A DNA stretch of 64,000 nucleotides. Source: Jiella flava. GTDB lineage: Bacteria; Pseudomonadota; Alphaproteobacteria; Rhizobiales; Rhizobiaceae. Within the stretch, counting starts at the first letter, position 1. Each line of letters begins with the position of its first letter. Shown here piece after piece: positions 48,302-56,208 of this stretch. Both the position numbers and the translations under genes were made by a program. Location of the stretch: assembly GCF_017349315.1 (NCBI RefSeq), contig NZ_JAFMPP010000002.1:62001-126000 (forward strand), read 5' to 3'. A model generated the notes under the pieces. That model was given only the letters and a program-made list of their open reading frames with translations, was not told where the DNA came from and searched no databases.

Positions 48302-49993
48302 TCAACTGCGGGCGGTTTCCGCAAGAATCGAGCGGTTGAGGATTGCCACCGGCAACATGCCGACGAGGACGATCATCAGCGCCGCCACTGCGCCATCCTC
48401 GAAGGCCGCCCGAGAGGTCTGGGCGTAGACGAAGGTGGCCAGCGTTTCGAAGTCGAAGGGCCGGAGCAGGATCGTCGCCGACAGCTCCTTGCTGGACTCG
48501 ACGAAGACCAGGAGAAAGGCGGTCATCAGTGCCGGGCGCATCAGCGGCAGCAGCACCTCGACGAGGGTCGAGCCCGGCGCGCGGCCGAGCGTGCGCGCTG
48601 CCATGTCGAGATGTGGCGAGAGCTTGGCGAAGCCGCTTTCAAGCGCGCCGTGCCCCATCGCCATAAACCGCACGAAGCCGGCATAGACGATAGCAAAGCC
48701 CGAACCCGACAAAAGCAGCCCTGTCGAGAGGTCGAACCCGGCGCTGAGATGCGCATCCACCCAGTTGTCGAAGCCAGCCAGCGGAATGAGAATGCCGATG
48801 GCAAGCACCGTGCCGGGAACGGCATAGCCGAGCACCGCCAGCCGGGTCATCAGCACCAGCCGACGCGAGCCCGTCAGCCGAACGCCATAGGCGAGCAGAA
48901 AGCCGGCGATGATCGTCACCAGCGCGGTGATGCCGGCGAGGACGACGGTGTGCTGCAGGGCCCGCCAAAGCTGCGGATCGGCCAGCTGATCGAGCCGTTC
49001 GAACGCGTAATCGGTAAGCACCGCAAAGGGGATGGCAAAACCGAGGAGGATCGGCAGGGCGCAAGCGGCAACGGCCAGAACGGCCTTGCCGCCGGTCAGC
49101 CGGTCCGCTCCCGGTCGCGGCCGGTCTGCCCGCCCGAGGGTGAAGCGCTGCTTGCGGCGGGCAAAGCGCTCGACGCTGACGAGAAGCACGATCATCACCA
49201 GCATCAACAAAGCGATCTGCGTCGCGCCATAAAGGTCGCCGCGATTGAGCCAGGTGGAATAGACCGCGAAGGTCAAAGTGCGCACGCCGAGAAACTCGAC
49301 GGCGCCGATGTCGTTCACCGCCTCCATCAGCGCCAGCATAACGCCGACCGCGATCGCCGGGCGGGCGAGCGGCAGGAGAATGCGCAGAAAGATCGTCGCC
49401 TGCGAGGCACCGAGGGTGCGGGCGACATCGGCGGCCTTCTGCCCCTGCATCAGAAAGACCATGCGCACGGTGAGATAGACGTAAGGGTAGAGCACCGACG
49501 ATAGGATCAGCACCGCTCCCGGCAGCGAGCGGATGTCCGGAAACCAGTATTCGCGGCTGGTCGTAAAACCGAAGACGCCGCGGATCGCCGTCTGCACCGG
49601 TCCGGCGAAGTGCAGAAATTCGACGAAGCAATAGGCGGCAATATAGGTCGGCACGGCGAGCGGCAGCACCAGGGCCCAGGAGAACATCCGCCGACCCGGA
49701 AAGCTGAAGCGGGCGACCAGCCAGGCGGTGATCACACCGATAGAGCCGGTGACGAGCGCGACGCCGAGCATCAGCCCGAGGGTGACGAGGCTCGCCTGCG
49801 GCAAGATCGTGCGGGCGAGATGCGACCAGTTCGTCGAGGTGCCGGAGAGCGCCAGATAGACCAGCGCGGCAAAGGGCATGGCGATCACGGCCGAGAGCGC
49901 GAAGGCCGCGGCGAGATAGCCGCGATCGCCCCGCGGGAGCAGGCGAAGGCGCGCCGGAATCGGCCAGGTCTTGGCGGGGCGAATGACGGACAT
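48302..49993 (-). CDS. fbpB: Ferric-iron ABC transporter permease FbpB
   Basis: Large fused permease (563 aa) with two permease domains of about six segments each, typical of FbpB/SfuB. EAA loops: VARTLGASQATIFLRILLPLAR in the first half (near residue 190) and AARTLGRAPGSTLVEVLLPLM in the second. ATG 49993 is chosen because it gives the usual N-terminus; the frame extends upstream. It follows fbpA by about 136 bp. The ATPase gene fbpC, usually next, is not in the window; the following bases hold a quinoprotein remnant. Confidence 0.9.
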   Translation of the reverse strand: MSVIRPAKTWPIPARLRLLPRGDRGYLAAAFALSAVIAMPFAALVYLALSGTSTNWSHLARTILPQASLVTLGLMLGVALVTGSIGVITAWLVARFSFPGRRMFSWALVLPLAVPTYIAAYCFVEFLHFAGPVQTAIRGVFGFTTSREYWFPDIRSLPGAVLILSSVLYPYVYLTVRMVFLMQGQKAADVARTLGASQATIFLRILLPLARPAIAVGVMLALMEAVNDIGAVEFLGVRTLTFAVYSTWLNRGDLYGATQIALLMLVMIVLLVSVERFARRKQRFTLGRADRPRPGADRLTGGKAVLAVAACALPILLGFAIPFAVLTDYAFERLDQLADPQLWRALQHTVVLAGITALVTIIAGFLLAYGVRLTGSRRLVLMTRLAVLGYAVPGTVLAIGILIPLAGFDNWVDAHLSAGFDLSTGLLLSGSGFAIVYAGFVRFMAMGHGALESGFAKLSPHLDMAARTLGRAPGSTLVEVLLPLMRPALMTAFLLVFVESSKELSATILLRPFDFETLATFVYAQTSRAAFEDGAVAALMIVLVGMLPVAILNRSILAETARS

Positions 49994-50129
49994 GGATGCG
50001 GATGGTCTCGGCGTCAGGCGCCAGCCGGAGCGGCGCATCATCGGGCGGTGATGGACCGGCAAGAACCGGTATCGCCTCGCATGAAGGCGATGCCGGCGAT
50101 CGTGTCCGCTCAGTTCAGTTCAAAACGGA

Positions 50130-51185
50130 TCAGCTCTGGGGGCCACCGTCATAGTTCAGCTCGTCGACGATCTCGGAAGCCGTCGCCCGGTGCTTGGCGA
50201 TCTCGTCGAGCGCCAGCGTATCCGACTTCAGCGCGCCGAAGGACTTGACCAGATCGGAGGTCGCGATGCCCGGCTCGACTGGATATTCGTAGTTCAGCTC
50301 GGCATAGATCTTCTGGGCGTCGTCGGAGGACAGGAATTCCATCAGCTTGATCGCGTTCTCCTTGTGCGGCGCGTTCTTGGCGAGGGCGACGCCCGAGATG
50401 TTCACATGGGTGAGGCCGTTGTCGAAGGTCGGCATGATCACCTGGATCGCCTTGGCCCAATCCTTCTGCTCCGGCTCCTTCTCGTTGGTCGCCATCTTGC
50501 CGACATAGTAGGTATTGCCGAGCGCGATATCGCATTCGCCGGCGAAGATCGCCTTGGCCTGGTCGCGGTCGCCGCCTTCGGGCCGGCGGGCGAGATTGTC
50601 GCGCAGACCTTTCACCCAGTCACGGGCGGCGTCCTCGCCGTAATGGGCAATATAGGCGGCGATCAGCGCAATATTGTATTGATGCTGGCCGGAGCGGGTG
50701 CACAGCCGGCCCTTCCATTTCGGATCGGCGAGATCCTTGTAGCGGATCGCAGCGACATCGACGCGGTCCTTGGAGGCATAGACGACGCGGCCGCGGGCCG
50801 TCAACGCGAACCAATCCTTGGCGCCGTCGCGAAAATTCGCCGGGATGTTTGTCGCAAGCGTCGCGCTGTCGACCGGCTGGACGATGCCGGCCTGCTTGGC
50901 GGCATCGAGGCGGCCGATATCGACGGTCATGACCAGATCGGCCGGCGAATTGGCCCCTTCCGCCTTGACGCGCTCTTCGAGCCCCTTGTCGATAAAGATC
51001 GTCGCGGTGCTCAGCCCGGTCTCTTTGGTGAAGGCATCAAGAACCGGCTGGATCAGCTCCGGCTGGCGGGAGGTGTAGATGTTGACGTCGGCGGCCTGGA
51101 CGACTGAGGCGGCGACGGTGATCGGCGCGAGCGTGGCTGAAAAAATGGCGATGGTCGTGAGGTGGCGGGCGAGAGACTGAGTCAT
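50130..51185 (-). CDS. fbpA: Ferric-iron ABC transporter substrate-binding protein FbpA/FutA
   Basis: Periplasmic Fe3+-binding receptor of 351 aa. The signal peptide is visible (IFSATLAPITVAASVVQA, cleavage near QAA). The mature start VNIYTSRQPELIQPVLDAF is typical, and the paired iron-ligand tyrosines are in GNTYYVGK near residue 225, with NYEYPV further on. Cys residues at LCTRSG and GECDIA might form a disulfide. An ICE-like box lies about 180 bp upstream, suggesting regulation by Irr (encoded at 31050). Confidence 0.92.
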   Translation of the reverse strand: MTQSLARHLTTIAIFSATLAPITVAASVVQAADVNIYTSRQPELIQPVLDAFTKETGLSTATIFIDKGLEERVKAEGANSPADLVMTVDIGRLDAAKQAGIVQPVDSATLATNIPANFRDGAKDWFALTARGRVVYASKDRVDVAAIRYKDLADPKWKGRLCTRSGQHQYNIALIAAYIAHYGEDAARDWVKGLRDNLARRPEGGDRDQAKAIFAGECDIALGNTYYVGKMATNEKEPEQKDWAKAIQVIMPTFDNGLTHVNISGVALAKNAPHKENAIKLMEFLSSDDAQKIYAELNYEYPVEPGIATSDLVKSFGALKSDTLALDEIAKHRATASEIVDELNYDGGPQS

Positions 51186-51660: not shown

Positions 51661-54600
51661 TCAGTCGAGAAGCACGCGGGAGAGCGGAAAGCGCACTTCC
51701 ACCATCGTGCCCTCGCCGGGCGTCGAGGCGATCGAGAACTGCGCCCGGTTGGCCTCGGCGAGAGCCTTGGTCAGGGGCAGGCCGAGGCGACCGCTTTCGC
51801 GGGTGCCGTGGCCGCTGTTGTGGCCGATGCCCGGCGCGCGCATCGCGCTTTCGATTTCGTCCTGCCGCATGCCGACGCCGCTGTCGCGAAAGCGTAGCGT
51901 CACGCCGGTTTCGGGACTGAATCTGGTCGAGACGATCAGCTGGCCGCCGGCCGGTGTCGAGCGGATCGAGTTGGCGACGAGGTTGGTGGTGATCTGCCGG
52001 AGGGTTTCGGGATCGCCGACGACCGGCGGCACCGAAGAGGGCAGATGGGTGCGAATGATCACCCGTTGCCGGTTGGCTTTCGGTCCCATGATGGCGGTGA
52101 CCTCATCGACGATCTCTGCCAGCGACACCGCTTCGAAGGCGATGCTCTGACCGCTGCTCTCCACCTTGGCGAGATCATGCAGAATGGTGACGAGATCGAT
52201 GACCTGATGGCCGGAGCGCTTGATGTCGTCGAGATATTCGAGATAGCGCTCATTGCCCACCGGGCCGAGGCTCTCGCTGCTGATCAGGTCAGCCAGGCCG
52301 ATCATCGCATCGACGGGATCGCGGATCTCCTGGGCGACTTCCGAAAGGAAGGTCGTCTTTTGCAGATTGGCGGCTTCGGCATCCGAGCGCGCCTTTTCCA
52401 GCGTCTGCTCGGAACGTTTCCAGGAGGTGATGTCCTGCACCACCGCGCAGCATCCGGGCCGGCGGGGGATGTGGCCGAGGGTCACCGAAAGCGGCAGAAA
52501 GGCGCCGCCGGCGACGCGGCCGATTACTTCACGCCGGGCGAACCATTTCGCCGCGCCCGTAGCCGGCTCGCTGGTCGGTGCCGCCGCGGCTTCTCTGCCG
52601 GCTAACAAGCCCTTCAGCCCCTTCTGGCTTTCATGCGCAAACAGCGACAGGAACGGGCGACCGGTGAGATCGTCTTCGGGAATTTCGAACAGCGCCCGGG
52701 CGGTGGCGCTCATCGCGGTGATCAGCCCGTTCGGATCGATCAGCACAACGCCGTCCGCAGCGAGATTGAGGATTGCGTCGTCGAGCGCGTCGGCCGGGAC
52801 CGCTTCGGGGCTTTCGCCCTCGTCTTCATCGGCCAGATCCCGCGCGATGACGGCCAGACGTGGTGTCGCGAAGAAGGACAGGATCAGGCAGGAGACGCCG
52901 CCGACGCAGCTGCGTTGCAGCCGGGCGCGCAGCGACAGGCTGCGGCCATTGGCGCGGCGGATGCGCAAGCAGTCGTCGTCGCCGTTCTGACGCTCCTGAA
53001 CCAGCGTTTCCAAACCGCCCGCCGCCTGAAACGCGGCGAGGTCTTCATGGCCGGTGAGATCGAAGAACTCGCGATTGGCATAGACGAGCGCGTCGCCGAC
53101 CTGGGCAAGAATCGGCAGCGGCAGCGTGCCATAGGAGGCTTCCAGCAGAGCCTCAGCATTCGCAGCTTCGCCACTGGCCGGCGCTGCGGCATGGCGCGAT
53201 GGCGTGCTGTCCGCGGCTTCTTTGGCTGGAGCGTCGTCGGCACCGGCATTAGAACTCGCCGGCGCGACGGGATGCGACAGGCGCTCCCATTCGATTTCAT
53301 CGATCCGCTCCGAGGCCGAGCGCACCGCTTCGACGAGCTCGCGGGGATCGCCGCCCTGGGCTAGCGTCTCGCCGATCGCCCGGAATGCCGCCTCTTCGGT
53401 CTGGCTGAGAGTTCCGTTGCCGCCACGCCGCCGCTCTTCGAGGCGAATGACCTTACCGTCCGGGCCGCTGCTGATGCGTGGTGCTTCGACCGGCGCGGGC
53501 TCGTCGGCCGGCTTGCTTGGCGCGCTCGGCCGCACCTCGGGATCGCGGCGACCGAAGGCAATTGACGGTGCCGGCGGGGCGCCGATCGTGCGCATGACGG
53601 CCGTCAGTGCCGCGTCCTCGGGCTGTTGCTCGGCGGCGATGGCTGTATCGGTCACGACTTGGCTTTTGAAAAAGGCCTCGGCCGGCGCGAGGCCGATCGC
53701 CTCGGGATCATCTTCGGCATCGGCGAGGCGGACGACGCCGAAGCCGCGAAAGCCATCGAAGGTGCGATCGCGGGCAAAGACCGGCAGGGCGGCGAGATCG
53801 ACGGGGACTTTCTTGGCGGTCGTCTCGACCGGCCACATCACCGTGCGGCCCGACCAGGTTTCGCGCCGTTTCAACAAGCGGCGCAACGCGCCGTCCGCGT
53901 CAAAACCATAGGCGTGGGCAACCTCGTCGATGCTGCGATCGACGATCGCCGCGGAGATCGGCCCGACGGCTTCGGAAAATTCCGGCGAGAGCGAGCGGAA
54001 GCGCCCGTCGCTGTCGATCCGCCAAACGAAGCGGACGGGCTCGGCGTCAAGCCGCGGGGCAAAGCCGCCGTCAGGGCCGTTTTTCGGCGCGGCCTGCTCT
54101 GCGTGCGCGGCCGCAAAATCGCCGGCGGTCGCCGCGCGAGTGTTTTCGACCGGCACGTCGCTACGCTGATCGTCCGTGGCGGAAATGGGTGTAGTCGCTG
54201 CGGGAGCGACGTCGGAGTAGGGGGCGATCGGCATCTCGGTCTCCGCGGAAGGCGTGTCGGGGACGCCGTCGCCGTCGCTCGTGGCGGTGGCGTCGGCTGG
54301 CGGCGGGGCGCCGCGCGGCTGGTCTGTCCGCCCGGCGGCGTCGAGATGCTCCGTCGAAGATACCGCGTTGCCGTCCGTCTCACTCTCGGGAACCGACCAG
54401 ACCGAATGACGCCGTCGCGGAGGCTGGGGCGCCGCCGGCTCGGCGCAAGAATTCGGCCCCGCTTCGGCGGGAGCGGAATCGCTGGTCGCGGCGCTCTGCG
54501 TCATTGCCGCATCCACAGGATGAACGGCGTCGATTGAGCTTGGCGCCGGCAGGAACCAGTTCGATGGACGGTCAAGCGGCGCGATCGGCTGATGCGCCTC

Positions 54601-55482
54601 CTGTGGGGTGTCGTCGATGGGATCGGCGTTGCGGAACGCTGCGTCCTCTGCTGCCGCATCGGTGGCGGCTTGGTCCTGGTCCGGCTCCTGCTCGACGATG
54701 TCAGCGCCATCCGACGCCGCCACCGGCGCGGATGGATTGACGCTGGCCGGTTCACCGCCAGTGCCCTGACCCTGCAGGCTGTCACTCTGTGCGGCGCTGT
54801 CGGCAACTGCTTCGGGCTCAGCCCCGACGCTCTCGGTCGAGGATGTACCCTCCGAAGCGACAGGCAGGGCAATCACGCGATCTTCGGCAACCCGGGCGAG
54901 CAGCAGGGTGGATCCGTCGCTCGCTTGCTGTTCGGCAATGGCTTCGGCGCCGGCAAAGAAGGCGCGGATCGCGTCGGCGCCGATGCGTCCTGCGGCTTTG
55001 GGATCGCGCGGTGTGCCGTCGAGATCGAACAGCGTGACGGCCGCACCGGCTGCCGCCCCCGCCTCGCGCAGCAAGGCGGCATCGCTCTCGGCCGGCGCAT
55101 AGGCGGTCCGCACAGCGCGGGTGGTCAGAAGCGCCACCTCCATTGCCGGATGTTCGCCGAACCCATCGATGATCAGGCGCCGCAAGCTGGCAGGCTGGCT
55201 CTGCGCCCGGAAGCCATTGGATGGGCGCAGCATCAGCGTCGTCGCACCCTTGCGCGACAGAATGCCGCGCGAGCCGGCGAGCTGGCGTGTCAAGTCGGAC
55301 TGATTCTCACTTCGCGGCCCGACTGCGGACAGGCCGAAACTTCCCGCAGCTGCGCTGTTGGCCCACAAAATGGCCGAAAGATCCTCCGATAAGACGATGA
55401 TCGCCGTATCGGGGTCATTCGCGCCTTGAACGGCCGGGTCCGCCATGATGGCGAGCGTTTGTCGCATCGGTGTGGTCGCCAT
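51661..55482 (-). CDS. PAS-domain histidine kinase-like protein lacking the phospho-acceptor His (pseudokinase candidate)
   Basis: A 1273-aa cytosolic protein with no transmembrane segment. In order: PAS-like segment (about 25-60), long disordered Ala/Pro/Glu/Asp-rich region (about 210-470), PAS near 485-590, disordered linker, PAS near 790-860, PAS near 910-1020, HisKA near 1030-1100, HATPase to the end. The H-box reads EVAQEIRDPVDAMIG where relatives have SHEIRTPLNAI: Gln (codon 52330-52332, residue about 1051) replaces His. The ATP lid has SGRLGLPLTK instead of SGTGLGLPLTK. N-box NLVANS and the DSGVGM box are intact. This is the Rhizobiales PdhS/PleC-like group; sequence after the H-box (GPVGNERYLEYLDDIKRSG) fits it. 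Start is ATG 55482 or GTG 55506. Divergent from the phasin gene. Confidence 0.88.
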   Translation of the reverse strand: MATTPMRQTLAIMADPAVQGANDPDTAIIVLSEDLSAILWANSAAAGSFGLSAVGPRSENQSDLTRQLAGSRGILSRKGATTLMLRPSNGFRAQSQPASLRRLIIDGFGEHPAMEVALLTTRAVRTAYAPAESDAALLREAGAAAGAAVTLFDLDGTPRDPKAAGRIGADAIRAFFAGAEAIAEQQASDGSTLLLARVAEDRVIALPVASEGTSSTESVGAEPEAVADSAAQSDSLQGQGTGGEPASVNPSAPVAASDGADIVEQEPDQDQAATDAAAEDAAFRNADPIDDTPQEAHQPIAPLDRPSNWFLPAPSSIDAVHPVDAAMTQSAATSDSAPAEAGPNSCAEPAAPQPPRRRHSVWSVPESETDGNAVSSTEHLDAAGRTDQPRGAPPPADATATSDGDGVPDTPSAETEMPIAPYSDVAPAATTPISATDDQRSDVPVENTRAATAGDFAAAHAEQAAPKNGPDGGFAPRLDAEPVRFVWRIDSDGRFRSLSPEFSEAVGPISAAIVDRSIDEVAHAYGFDADGALRRLLKRRETWSGRTVMWPVETTAKKVPVDLAALPVFARDRTFDGFRGFGVVRLADAEDDPEAIGLAPAEAFFKSQVVTDTAIAAEQQPEDAALTAVMRTIGAPPAPSIAFGRRDPEVRPSAPSKPADEPAPVEAPRISSGPDGKVIRLEERRRGGNGTLSQTEEAAFRAIGETLAQGGDPRELVEAVRSASERIDEIEWERLSHPVAPASSNAGADDAPAKEAADSTPSRHAAAPASGEAANAEALLEASYGTLPLPILAQVGDALVYANREFFDLTGHEDLAAFQAAGGLETLVQERQNGDDDCLRIRRANGRSLSLRARLQRSCVGGVSCLILSFFATPRLAVIARDLADEDEGESPEAVPADALDDAILNLAADGVVLIDPNGLITAMSATARALFEIPEDDLTGRPFLSLFAHESQKGLKGLLAGREAAAAPTSEPATGAAKWFARREVIGRVAGGAFLPLSVTLGHIPRRPGCCAVVQDITSWKRSEQTLEKARSDAEAANLQKTTFLSEVAQEIRDPVDAMIGLADLISSESLGPVGNERYLEYLDDIKRSGHQVIDLVTILHDLAKVESSGQSIAFEAVSLAEIVDEVTAIMGPKANRQRVIIRTHLPSSVPPVVGDPETLRQITTNLVANSIRSTPAGGQLIVSTRFSPETGVTLRFRDSGVGMRQDEIESAMRAPGIGHNSGHGTRESGRLGLPLTKALAEANRAQFSIASTPGEGTMVEVRFPLSRVLLD

Positions 55483-55660
55483 GGATTGGTTCGTCACTTC
55501 CGCCACACGCGCGCCGCCGGTGAGGCCTTTCGAGTTCCGATCAGTCTTAAGCTTTCTTTCATAGTGTTGTGGGCGATGCGAATAAAGAACCCCCCAGGTT
55601 CACCCACTACGGACTTGCAAGAGGGTTAACGTCTGCCGGATGGGAAAAATCTGCGTGGTT

Positions 55661-55752: not shown

Positions 55753-56208
55753 ATGGCTGAAGCCAAGAGCGATCCGTTCGCGATGCCGAATGCGCAGTCG
55801 ATCCTCGGAATGGATCCGAGCCAGCTCAACGAGACGTTCCGGTCGATGACGCAGAAGTCGATGGAGCAGTCGAAGGAAGCCTATGGCCGGATGAAGACGG
55901 CTGCGGATGAGGCGACCAAAGCGCTCGAAGCGACGATGGAAAATGTTCATCAGGGCTCGCTGCAGTTGTCCAAGAAGGCGATCGACGCGATGCGCACCAA
56001 TGCCGAACTCGGATTTGCCCATCTCGACTCGATGATGTCCGCGAAGTCCTTCGCTGAAGTCATTGAAATGCAGACGGCCTATGTGCGCAAGCAGGTCGAG
56101 ATGGCGACCGACCAGGCCAAGGAAATGCAGACCCTGACCCAGGCCGTCGCCCAAGACATGATGAAGCCGGGCCGCGACGCTTTCCAAAAGGCCACCAAGG
56201 GCAAGTAA
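55753..56208 (+). CDS. Phasin family protein
   Basis: Coats polyhydroxyalkanoate granules and limits their size. The 151-aa protein is almost fully helical, without cysteine or membrane segment, and has the phasin pattern MTQKSMEQSKEAYGRMKTA and QTAYVRKQVEMATDQAKEM (amphipathic helices, coiled-coil repeats). GAGGAGA lies 7 bases before the ATG. It stands alone: no phaC or phaA nearby. The PhaR-like operator upstream suggests induction when granules form. The acetoacetyl-CoA synthetase at 44.8 kb belongs to the same metabolic theme. Confidence 0.9.
   Translation: MAEAKSDPFAMPNAQSILGMDPSQLNETFRSMTQKSMEQSKEAYGRMKTAADEATKALEATMENVHQGSLQLSKKAIDAMRTNAELGFAHLDSMMSAKSFAEVIEMQTAYVRKQVEMATDQAKEMQTLTQAVAQDMMKPGRDAFQKATKGK

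Follow-up and report, generated by a model that had tools for sequence, protein, structure and literature searches.

A PdhS/CbrA-type protein without its phospho-acceptor histidine is a conserved predicted pseudokinase in the genus of Jiella flava

This analysis concerns one gene in a 64,000-nucleotide stretch of the Jiella flava genome (contig NZ_JAFMPP010000002.1, positions 62,001 to 126,000; hereafter the window). Its product is most simply read as the ortholog of PdhS/CbrA, the soluble DivK kinase type of the Rhizobiales, and it has lost the phospho-acceptor histidine, the phosphatase threonine, and two motifs of the ATP site. The pseudokinase is real and conserved in the genus, and it is undescribed within the open-license PubMed Central (PMC) papers that we searched, where no His-less PdhS/CbrA is reported in titles or abstract openings. 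Judged from sequence, it is a second pseudokinase of the DivK-CtrA network, which arose separately from DivL. With moderate confidence, we favor the reading that an ancestral PdhS/CbrA kinase/phosphatase became, along the stem of the genus, a non-catalytic regulator that binds DivK.

The labels H, N, G1, F, and G2 are used here in their customary sense for the kinase motifs, as are the roles given to their residues. Direct reading of the minus strand places CAG (Gln) at the phospho-acceptor position, in frame at 52332-52330 within VAQEIRDPVDAM (minus strand gtc gcc cag gag atc cgc gat), just as an earlier reading made from the letters alone (the sequence-only reading) had claimed. That reading also gave the G2 stretch as SGRLGLPLTK and the N and G1 boxes as kept, which is what we find in the source copy, where the N box (RQITTNLVANS) and G1 (RDSGVGM) are intact. 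Two points were absent from it: the Thr at H+4 has become Asp, and the F box is gone. The protein thus has none of the His, the Thr or Asn at H+4, and the F and G2 boxes that mark an active PdhS-type histidine kinase. HisKA and HATPase_c are still detected in it by Pfam, and the nearest solved folds to its dimerization and histidine phosphotransfer (DHp) plus catalytic and ATP-binding (CA) region include those of ZraS and DivL (Table 1).

The loss of His is shared by the whole genus sample, which comprises 10 genomes with the source genome included, among them Jiella mangrovi, Jiella sp. LLJ827, Aurantimonas sp. 22II-16-19i, and a Fulvimarina metagenome-assembled genome (genomes and loci carry our own G and L labels). 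The position is Gln in five, Ser in three, Arg in one, and Glu in one, with His in 0/10. At H+4, nine genomes have Asp and one (G122) has Ser; all 10 lack the F box as well as the GTG in G2, and the N-box Asn has become Asp in two (G200 and G122). Outside the genus, His is kept at 240 of the 242 loci read, and H+4 is Thr at 238 of these 242 loci and Asn at one. In the GTDB family, His stands at 156/156 loci outside the genus and Thr at H+4 in 153 of them; this search gave matches in 181 of 199 genomes and 177 matches outside the genus, 151 of which were read along with five weaker ones, and the 156 include L206, which is probably another kinase. In the order, the search gave matches in 104 of 121 genomes, 100 of which lie outside the family; among the 86 loci read from these, His is present at 84 and Thr or Asn at H+4 in 86/86, counting L371-L375, which may be other PdhS-type kinases. 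Because His is found in 0/10 within the genus against 240/242 outside it, chance or a sequencing error in one genome is excluded.

The catalytic region of the nine genus relatives is 68-83% identical to the source copy, and the frame is open over 1249-1372 amino acids in eight of the 10 genomes. In G204 it ends at the contig end; in G202 (L073) it spans 624 amino acids of the C-terminal part, likely an assembly error, because completeness is 84% in this assembly and the DivL match there is truncated as well. As to whether Gln is fixed in close relatives, as the sequence-only reading had asked, Gln itself is not (5/10), but the absence of His is (10/10), with a genus ratio of nonsynonymous to synonymous substitution (omega) of 0.056, below 1. 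Nor did we find same-genus orthologs with His beside a copy under relaxed selection, which that reading had named as the signs of a dying gene.

Changes at the same motifs were seen in other lineages as well. At the order level, L369 (G312, 1-762) has Arg (CGC) in place of His and a degenerate G2, and L335 and L350 from the same genus keep His; this is apparently an independent conversion. L329 (G216, 1-780, also at the order level) has Leu (CTT) with an otherwise intact G2, its same-genus L304 and L305 keep His, and an error is possible because the change is seen in a single genome. In a second lineage of the Jiella flava family (L108 in G039 and L202 in G135), His is kept and the Thr at H+4 is Glu, with the G2 box of L202 also altered. 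L368 and L370 (G238 and G313) keep His, and their G2 reads SAALSLSLT or NSALSLSLT, not GTGLGLPLT. L205 (G056) is a decaying relative: its match holds a single in-frame stop, Ala stands in place of the Thr, and Ser in place of the N-box Asn.

In the full-length tree, in which G202 and G204 fill less than half of the columns, the genus is monophyletic (100/100) and its sister is G027 (100/100). This sister keeps His and Thr, but its F box, G1, and G2 are gone. Because G027 combines His and Thr with a degenerate ATP site, the simplest order of events is that the ATP site probably decayed first and that His and Thr were lost afterwards. Codon models (236 codons, 21 taxa) gave an omega of 0.069 for the background and 0.0556 for the genus crown. 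On the genus stem, omega went to its upper bound, with twice the log-likelihood difference (2dlnL) at 1.4 against a value of 1, which is no distinguishable difference, and at 22.1 against the rest of the tree, which is a clear one; with two more branch classes, it was 0.94 on this stem and 0.32 on the stem of G027 plus the genus. The silent sites are far diverged, so the stem omega is rough and relaxed and positive selection are not separated. In these models, change came in a burst along the genus stem, at an omega of about 1, and strong purifying selection (crown omega 0.056) followed. A lineage-wide acceleration was considered and rejected, since the genus stem is 0.073 long in DivL, which was followed in 18 of the same taxa, versus 0.80 in PdhS. 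The DivL stem omega was also at its upper bound, but not significantly so (2dlnL 2.9; PdhS gives 20.4 when reduced to these 18 taxa). Catalytic residues are lost, whereas the sequence and the predicted fold are maintained by purifying selection; in this the protein has the properties of a HisKA pseudokinase.

The assignment to PdhS/CbrA follows from a PdhS model match and from neighbors held in common with His-bearing orthologs. The best NCBIfam model is NF041593 (PdhS, cell-division control histidine kinase; 603 bits, E 7.8e-181), with amino acids 463-1281 aligned to model positions 231-1041; its equivalog cut-off of 2000 bits is above this score, and the model alone would not name the protein PdhS. 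Homology to the group covers the N-terminal module, PAS, DHp, and CA, and the neighborhood is shared too: a phasin gene adjoins 10 of the 11 His-bearing orthologs whose surroundings were examined, and both ATP-binding cassette (ABC) transporter genes found here also adjoin four of the 11 (G137, G041, G079, and G023). The pseudokinase gene has the phasin gene on one side and the transporter, probably for iron, on the other. We take fbpB of Sinorhizobium meliloti to encode an iron ABC permease and SMc00777 a phasin. These two genes are the neighbors of cbrA in that species (PMC11500502). PdhS1, PdhS, and CbrA have been grouped as large proteins without membrane domains (PMC3577659). The closest other kinase in the source genome is only 31% identical over the same region, and no second PdhS copy was therefore found in this genome. 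Compared with PdhS of Brucella, CbrA of S. meliloti, and PdhS1 of Agrobacterium tumefaciens, the genus protein is alike in the homologous region, large size, PAS input, and neighbors, yet unlike them it is without His, the Thr at H+4, and the F and G2 boxes, whereas CbrA is a DivK kinase (PMC11500502).

The rest of the network is in place. The source genome encodes DivK beside PleD, together with CckA with its His, ChpT (assigned by PF10090), CtrA, and CpdR, and it also encodes three close His-bearing paralogs and, as a separate gene, DivL with Tyr (NYELRSP). The names of the paralogs (L002, PdhS2/DivJ-like; L003; L004, PleC-like) and of DivK, PleD, CckA, CtrA, and CpdR (L239, L223, L246, L229, and L250) are assigned by layout and characteristic motifs, not by a curated match. 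DivK is present in 18/18 genomes checked; DivL has Tyr at the His site in 18/18, keeps its G2 box in 18/18, and is 84-91% identical within the genus. The presence of DivL as its own gene with Tyr supports the suggestion of the sequence-only reading that this gene is a second, independent pseudokinase in the network. In S. meliloti, CbrA and DivJ are both DivK kinases, each dispensable but not both (PMC11500502), and such partial redundancy would have allowed the loss of chemistry in the genus.

What would such a protein do? Autophosphorylation, phosphotransfer, and phosphatase activity of the His-kinase type should all be gone, because both DHp positions are changed and the ATP site is broken. 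The pseudokinase would still dimerize and dock DivK, and perhaps PleD; by occupancy or allostery it could set how much DivK reaches DivJ, PleC, and DivL and so influence CckA-ChpT-CtrA output, the PAS modules being its putative input. Purifying selection keeps the DHp helices and the N-terminal module as well as most of the core that docks response regulators, and in this core G+11, F+12, R+28, Y+29, Y+32, D+35, I+36, S+39, and G+40 are the same at at least 90% both in the genus and outside. By descent, the partners would be DivK or PleD, and the kept surface is the one that docks response regulators. DivL has no kinase or phosphatase activity, yet it binds DivK~P, with R553, T557, Y562, and H579 as contacts (PMC4211667). 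In PdhS2 of A. tumefaciens, complementation is retained with H271A but not with T275A, and combining the two changes had minimal effect on phenotypes (PMC7003649). This H271A/T275A (K-P-) allele has lost the same two DHp residues as the genus protein, but it is engineered and lies in a different paralog (PMC7003649), whereas the genus loss is natural and under selection.

Several observations weigh against this reading or parts of it. When the DivL contact positions are mapped through 4q20, the Arg at +3 is kept or is Lys in three genus members, and H+12, the position of DivL Tyr562, is Leu in the source copy and Phe in the genus and the active orthologs. New Asp residues stand at H+4 and H+7, where DivK would sit, and in DivL the T557N substitution at +7 weakened binding (PMC4211667). 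Tests for an excess of type-II change in the catalytic motifs (p 0.11) and for a shortage of it in the docking core (p 0.30) were both non-significant, so that retention of the core does not differ statistically from that of the remaining domain. The crown omega is slightly higher than in the controls DivJ-like (0.048) and DivL (0.037), and the drop within the genus is larger in DivL (from 0.088 to 0.037); since a low genus omega is common to both controls, it shows constraint and nothing special to the PdhS gene. As for the order of loss, the changes in G027 could be its own. We also dropped the idea that the helix-2 motif had converged with that of other copies lacking His, because Ala at +54 is found in 11 of 240 His-bearing loci as well; the helix-2 stretch H+44 to H+57 (Table 1) was itself picked after the type-II sites were seen.

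The main rival to DivK binding, though an unlikely one, is that the protein pairs through its DHp helices with a His-bearing paralog of the DivJ, PleC, or PdhS2 type, or with CckA, and blocks or biases that kinase. RetS of Pseudomonas and the evolved ChrS of Corynebacterium also have the build of kinases and exert their action on another one, but they belong to other lineages, and for the genus protein pairing is a proposal only. A broader idea is doubtful: PdhS/CbrA kinases may repeatedly become pseudokinases, the ATP site first and His second (the genus; independently G312; partially G027, G039/G135, and G238/G313), and in the genus the acidic pair at H+4 and H+7 may repel a phosphorylated partner, so that the protein would sense unphosphorylated DivK and thereby mirror DivL, the sensor of DivK~P.

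We give still less weight to the proposal of the sequence-only reading that the protein works on CckA in the manner of DivL, binding it and tuning the balance between its kinase and phosphatase activities. Superfamily, network, and kind of catalytic loss are indeed the same, and both DivL and CckA are present; yet DivL is itself conserved in the genus with its Tyr, so the CckA role looks filled, and S. meliloti CbrA acts as a DivK kinase (PMC11500502). DivL as the closest concept holds as far as a pseudokinase of the same network goes and fails at the active site: DivL has a fixed Tyr and a kept G2, whereas the genus protein has a varying Q/S/R/E and a broken ATP site. The source copy has Gln in place of the Tyr that marks DivL orthologs, and the DivL of its own genome is only 26% identical over the region. 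That the gene is dying, its kinase function dispensable, is very improbable: the drifting His-site residue, the stem omega near 1, the shortened G202 frame, and the partial redundancy of divJ and cbrA in S. meliloti (PMC11500502) would fit, but the codon models (a crown omega not above background), the intact frames, and the conservation of the catalytic region in nine relatives largely refute it. An active but unusual kinase with another acceptor residue is hardly credible, given that the position varies, F and G2 are lost in 10/10, and G200 and G122 carry Asp for the N-box Asn, even if the N box and G1 are kept in the source copy.

The sequence-only reading had counted four PAS-like segments. 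One is clear (amino acids ~905-1035), two fall below threshold, and the fourth is without a match, as the Pfam search gave no PAS match in amino acids 20-230. In 40-amino-acid blocks, the N-terminal module is 74-85% identical to seven genus members and 59-72% identical to five orthologs outside.

Table 1. Coordinates in the window of the pseudokinase gene, its parts, and its syntenic neighbors.
Feature	Position	Strand	Remarks
pdhS/cbrA ortholog (most simply), pseudokinase gene	51661..55506	-	1281 amino acids from GTG 55506; 1273 from ATG 55482
DHp + CA kinase-like region	51664..52449	-	Pfam HisKA 1.1e-8, HATPase_c 8.8e-15; AlphaFold 2 predicted local distance difference test (pLDDT) 82.5
Altered G2 box SGRLGLP, versus GTGLGLP in active orthologs	51775..51795	-	alignment
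Former F box, PF to APG	51829..51837	-	gone in 10/10 genus members and sister G027
DHp helix 2, second half (H+44..H+57), NDLLDISKIE to TILHDLAKVE, new form conserved	52159..52200	-	7/19 type-II sites
H+7 Asn to Asp	52309..52311	-	N 97% outside genus, D 90% inside
H+4 phosphatase Thr to Asp	52318..52320	-	D in 9/10 genus members, S in G122
Phospho-acceptor His position, CAG (Gln)	52330..52332	-	direct reading and alignment
PAS domain adjoining kinase-like core (amino acids ~905-1035)	52402..52794	-	PF00989 above cut-off
Weak PAS-like segment (amino acids ~789-845)	52972..53142	-	PAS_8, below cut-off
Conserved N-terminal module (weak PAS_4, amino acids ~497-585, below cut-off)	53707..54066	-	
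Low-complexity, poorly conserved linker	54067..54834	-	15-22% identity to 7 genus members over amino acids 241-480
Phasin, syntenic neighbor	55753..56208	+	Phasin_2 1.4e-16
ABC transporter solute-binding protein, syntenic neighbor	50130..51185	-	probably iron-type
ABC transporter permease, syntenic neighbor	48302..50062	-	

Among histidine kinases that have turned into sensors, DivL is to our knowledge the best-known case; the gene described here would be a second, separate conversion of a kinase into a pseudokinase inside DivL's own network. The authors of the DivL study remark that how widely nature uses such reversed signaling merits more study (PMC4211667). With an intermediate-like sister in G027 and His-bearing orthologs in a common neighborhood, the order of events and the effects of a loss of DivK kinase chemistry become directly testable. 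In the genus itself, it would be misleading to annotate the gene as encoding a sensor histidine kinase.

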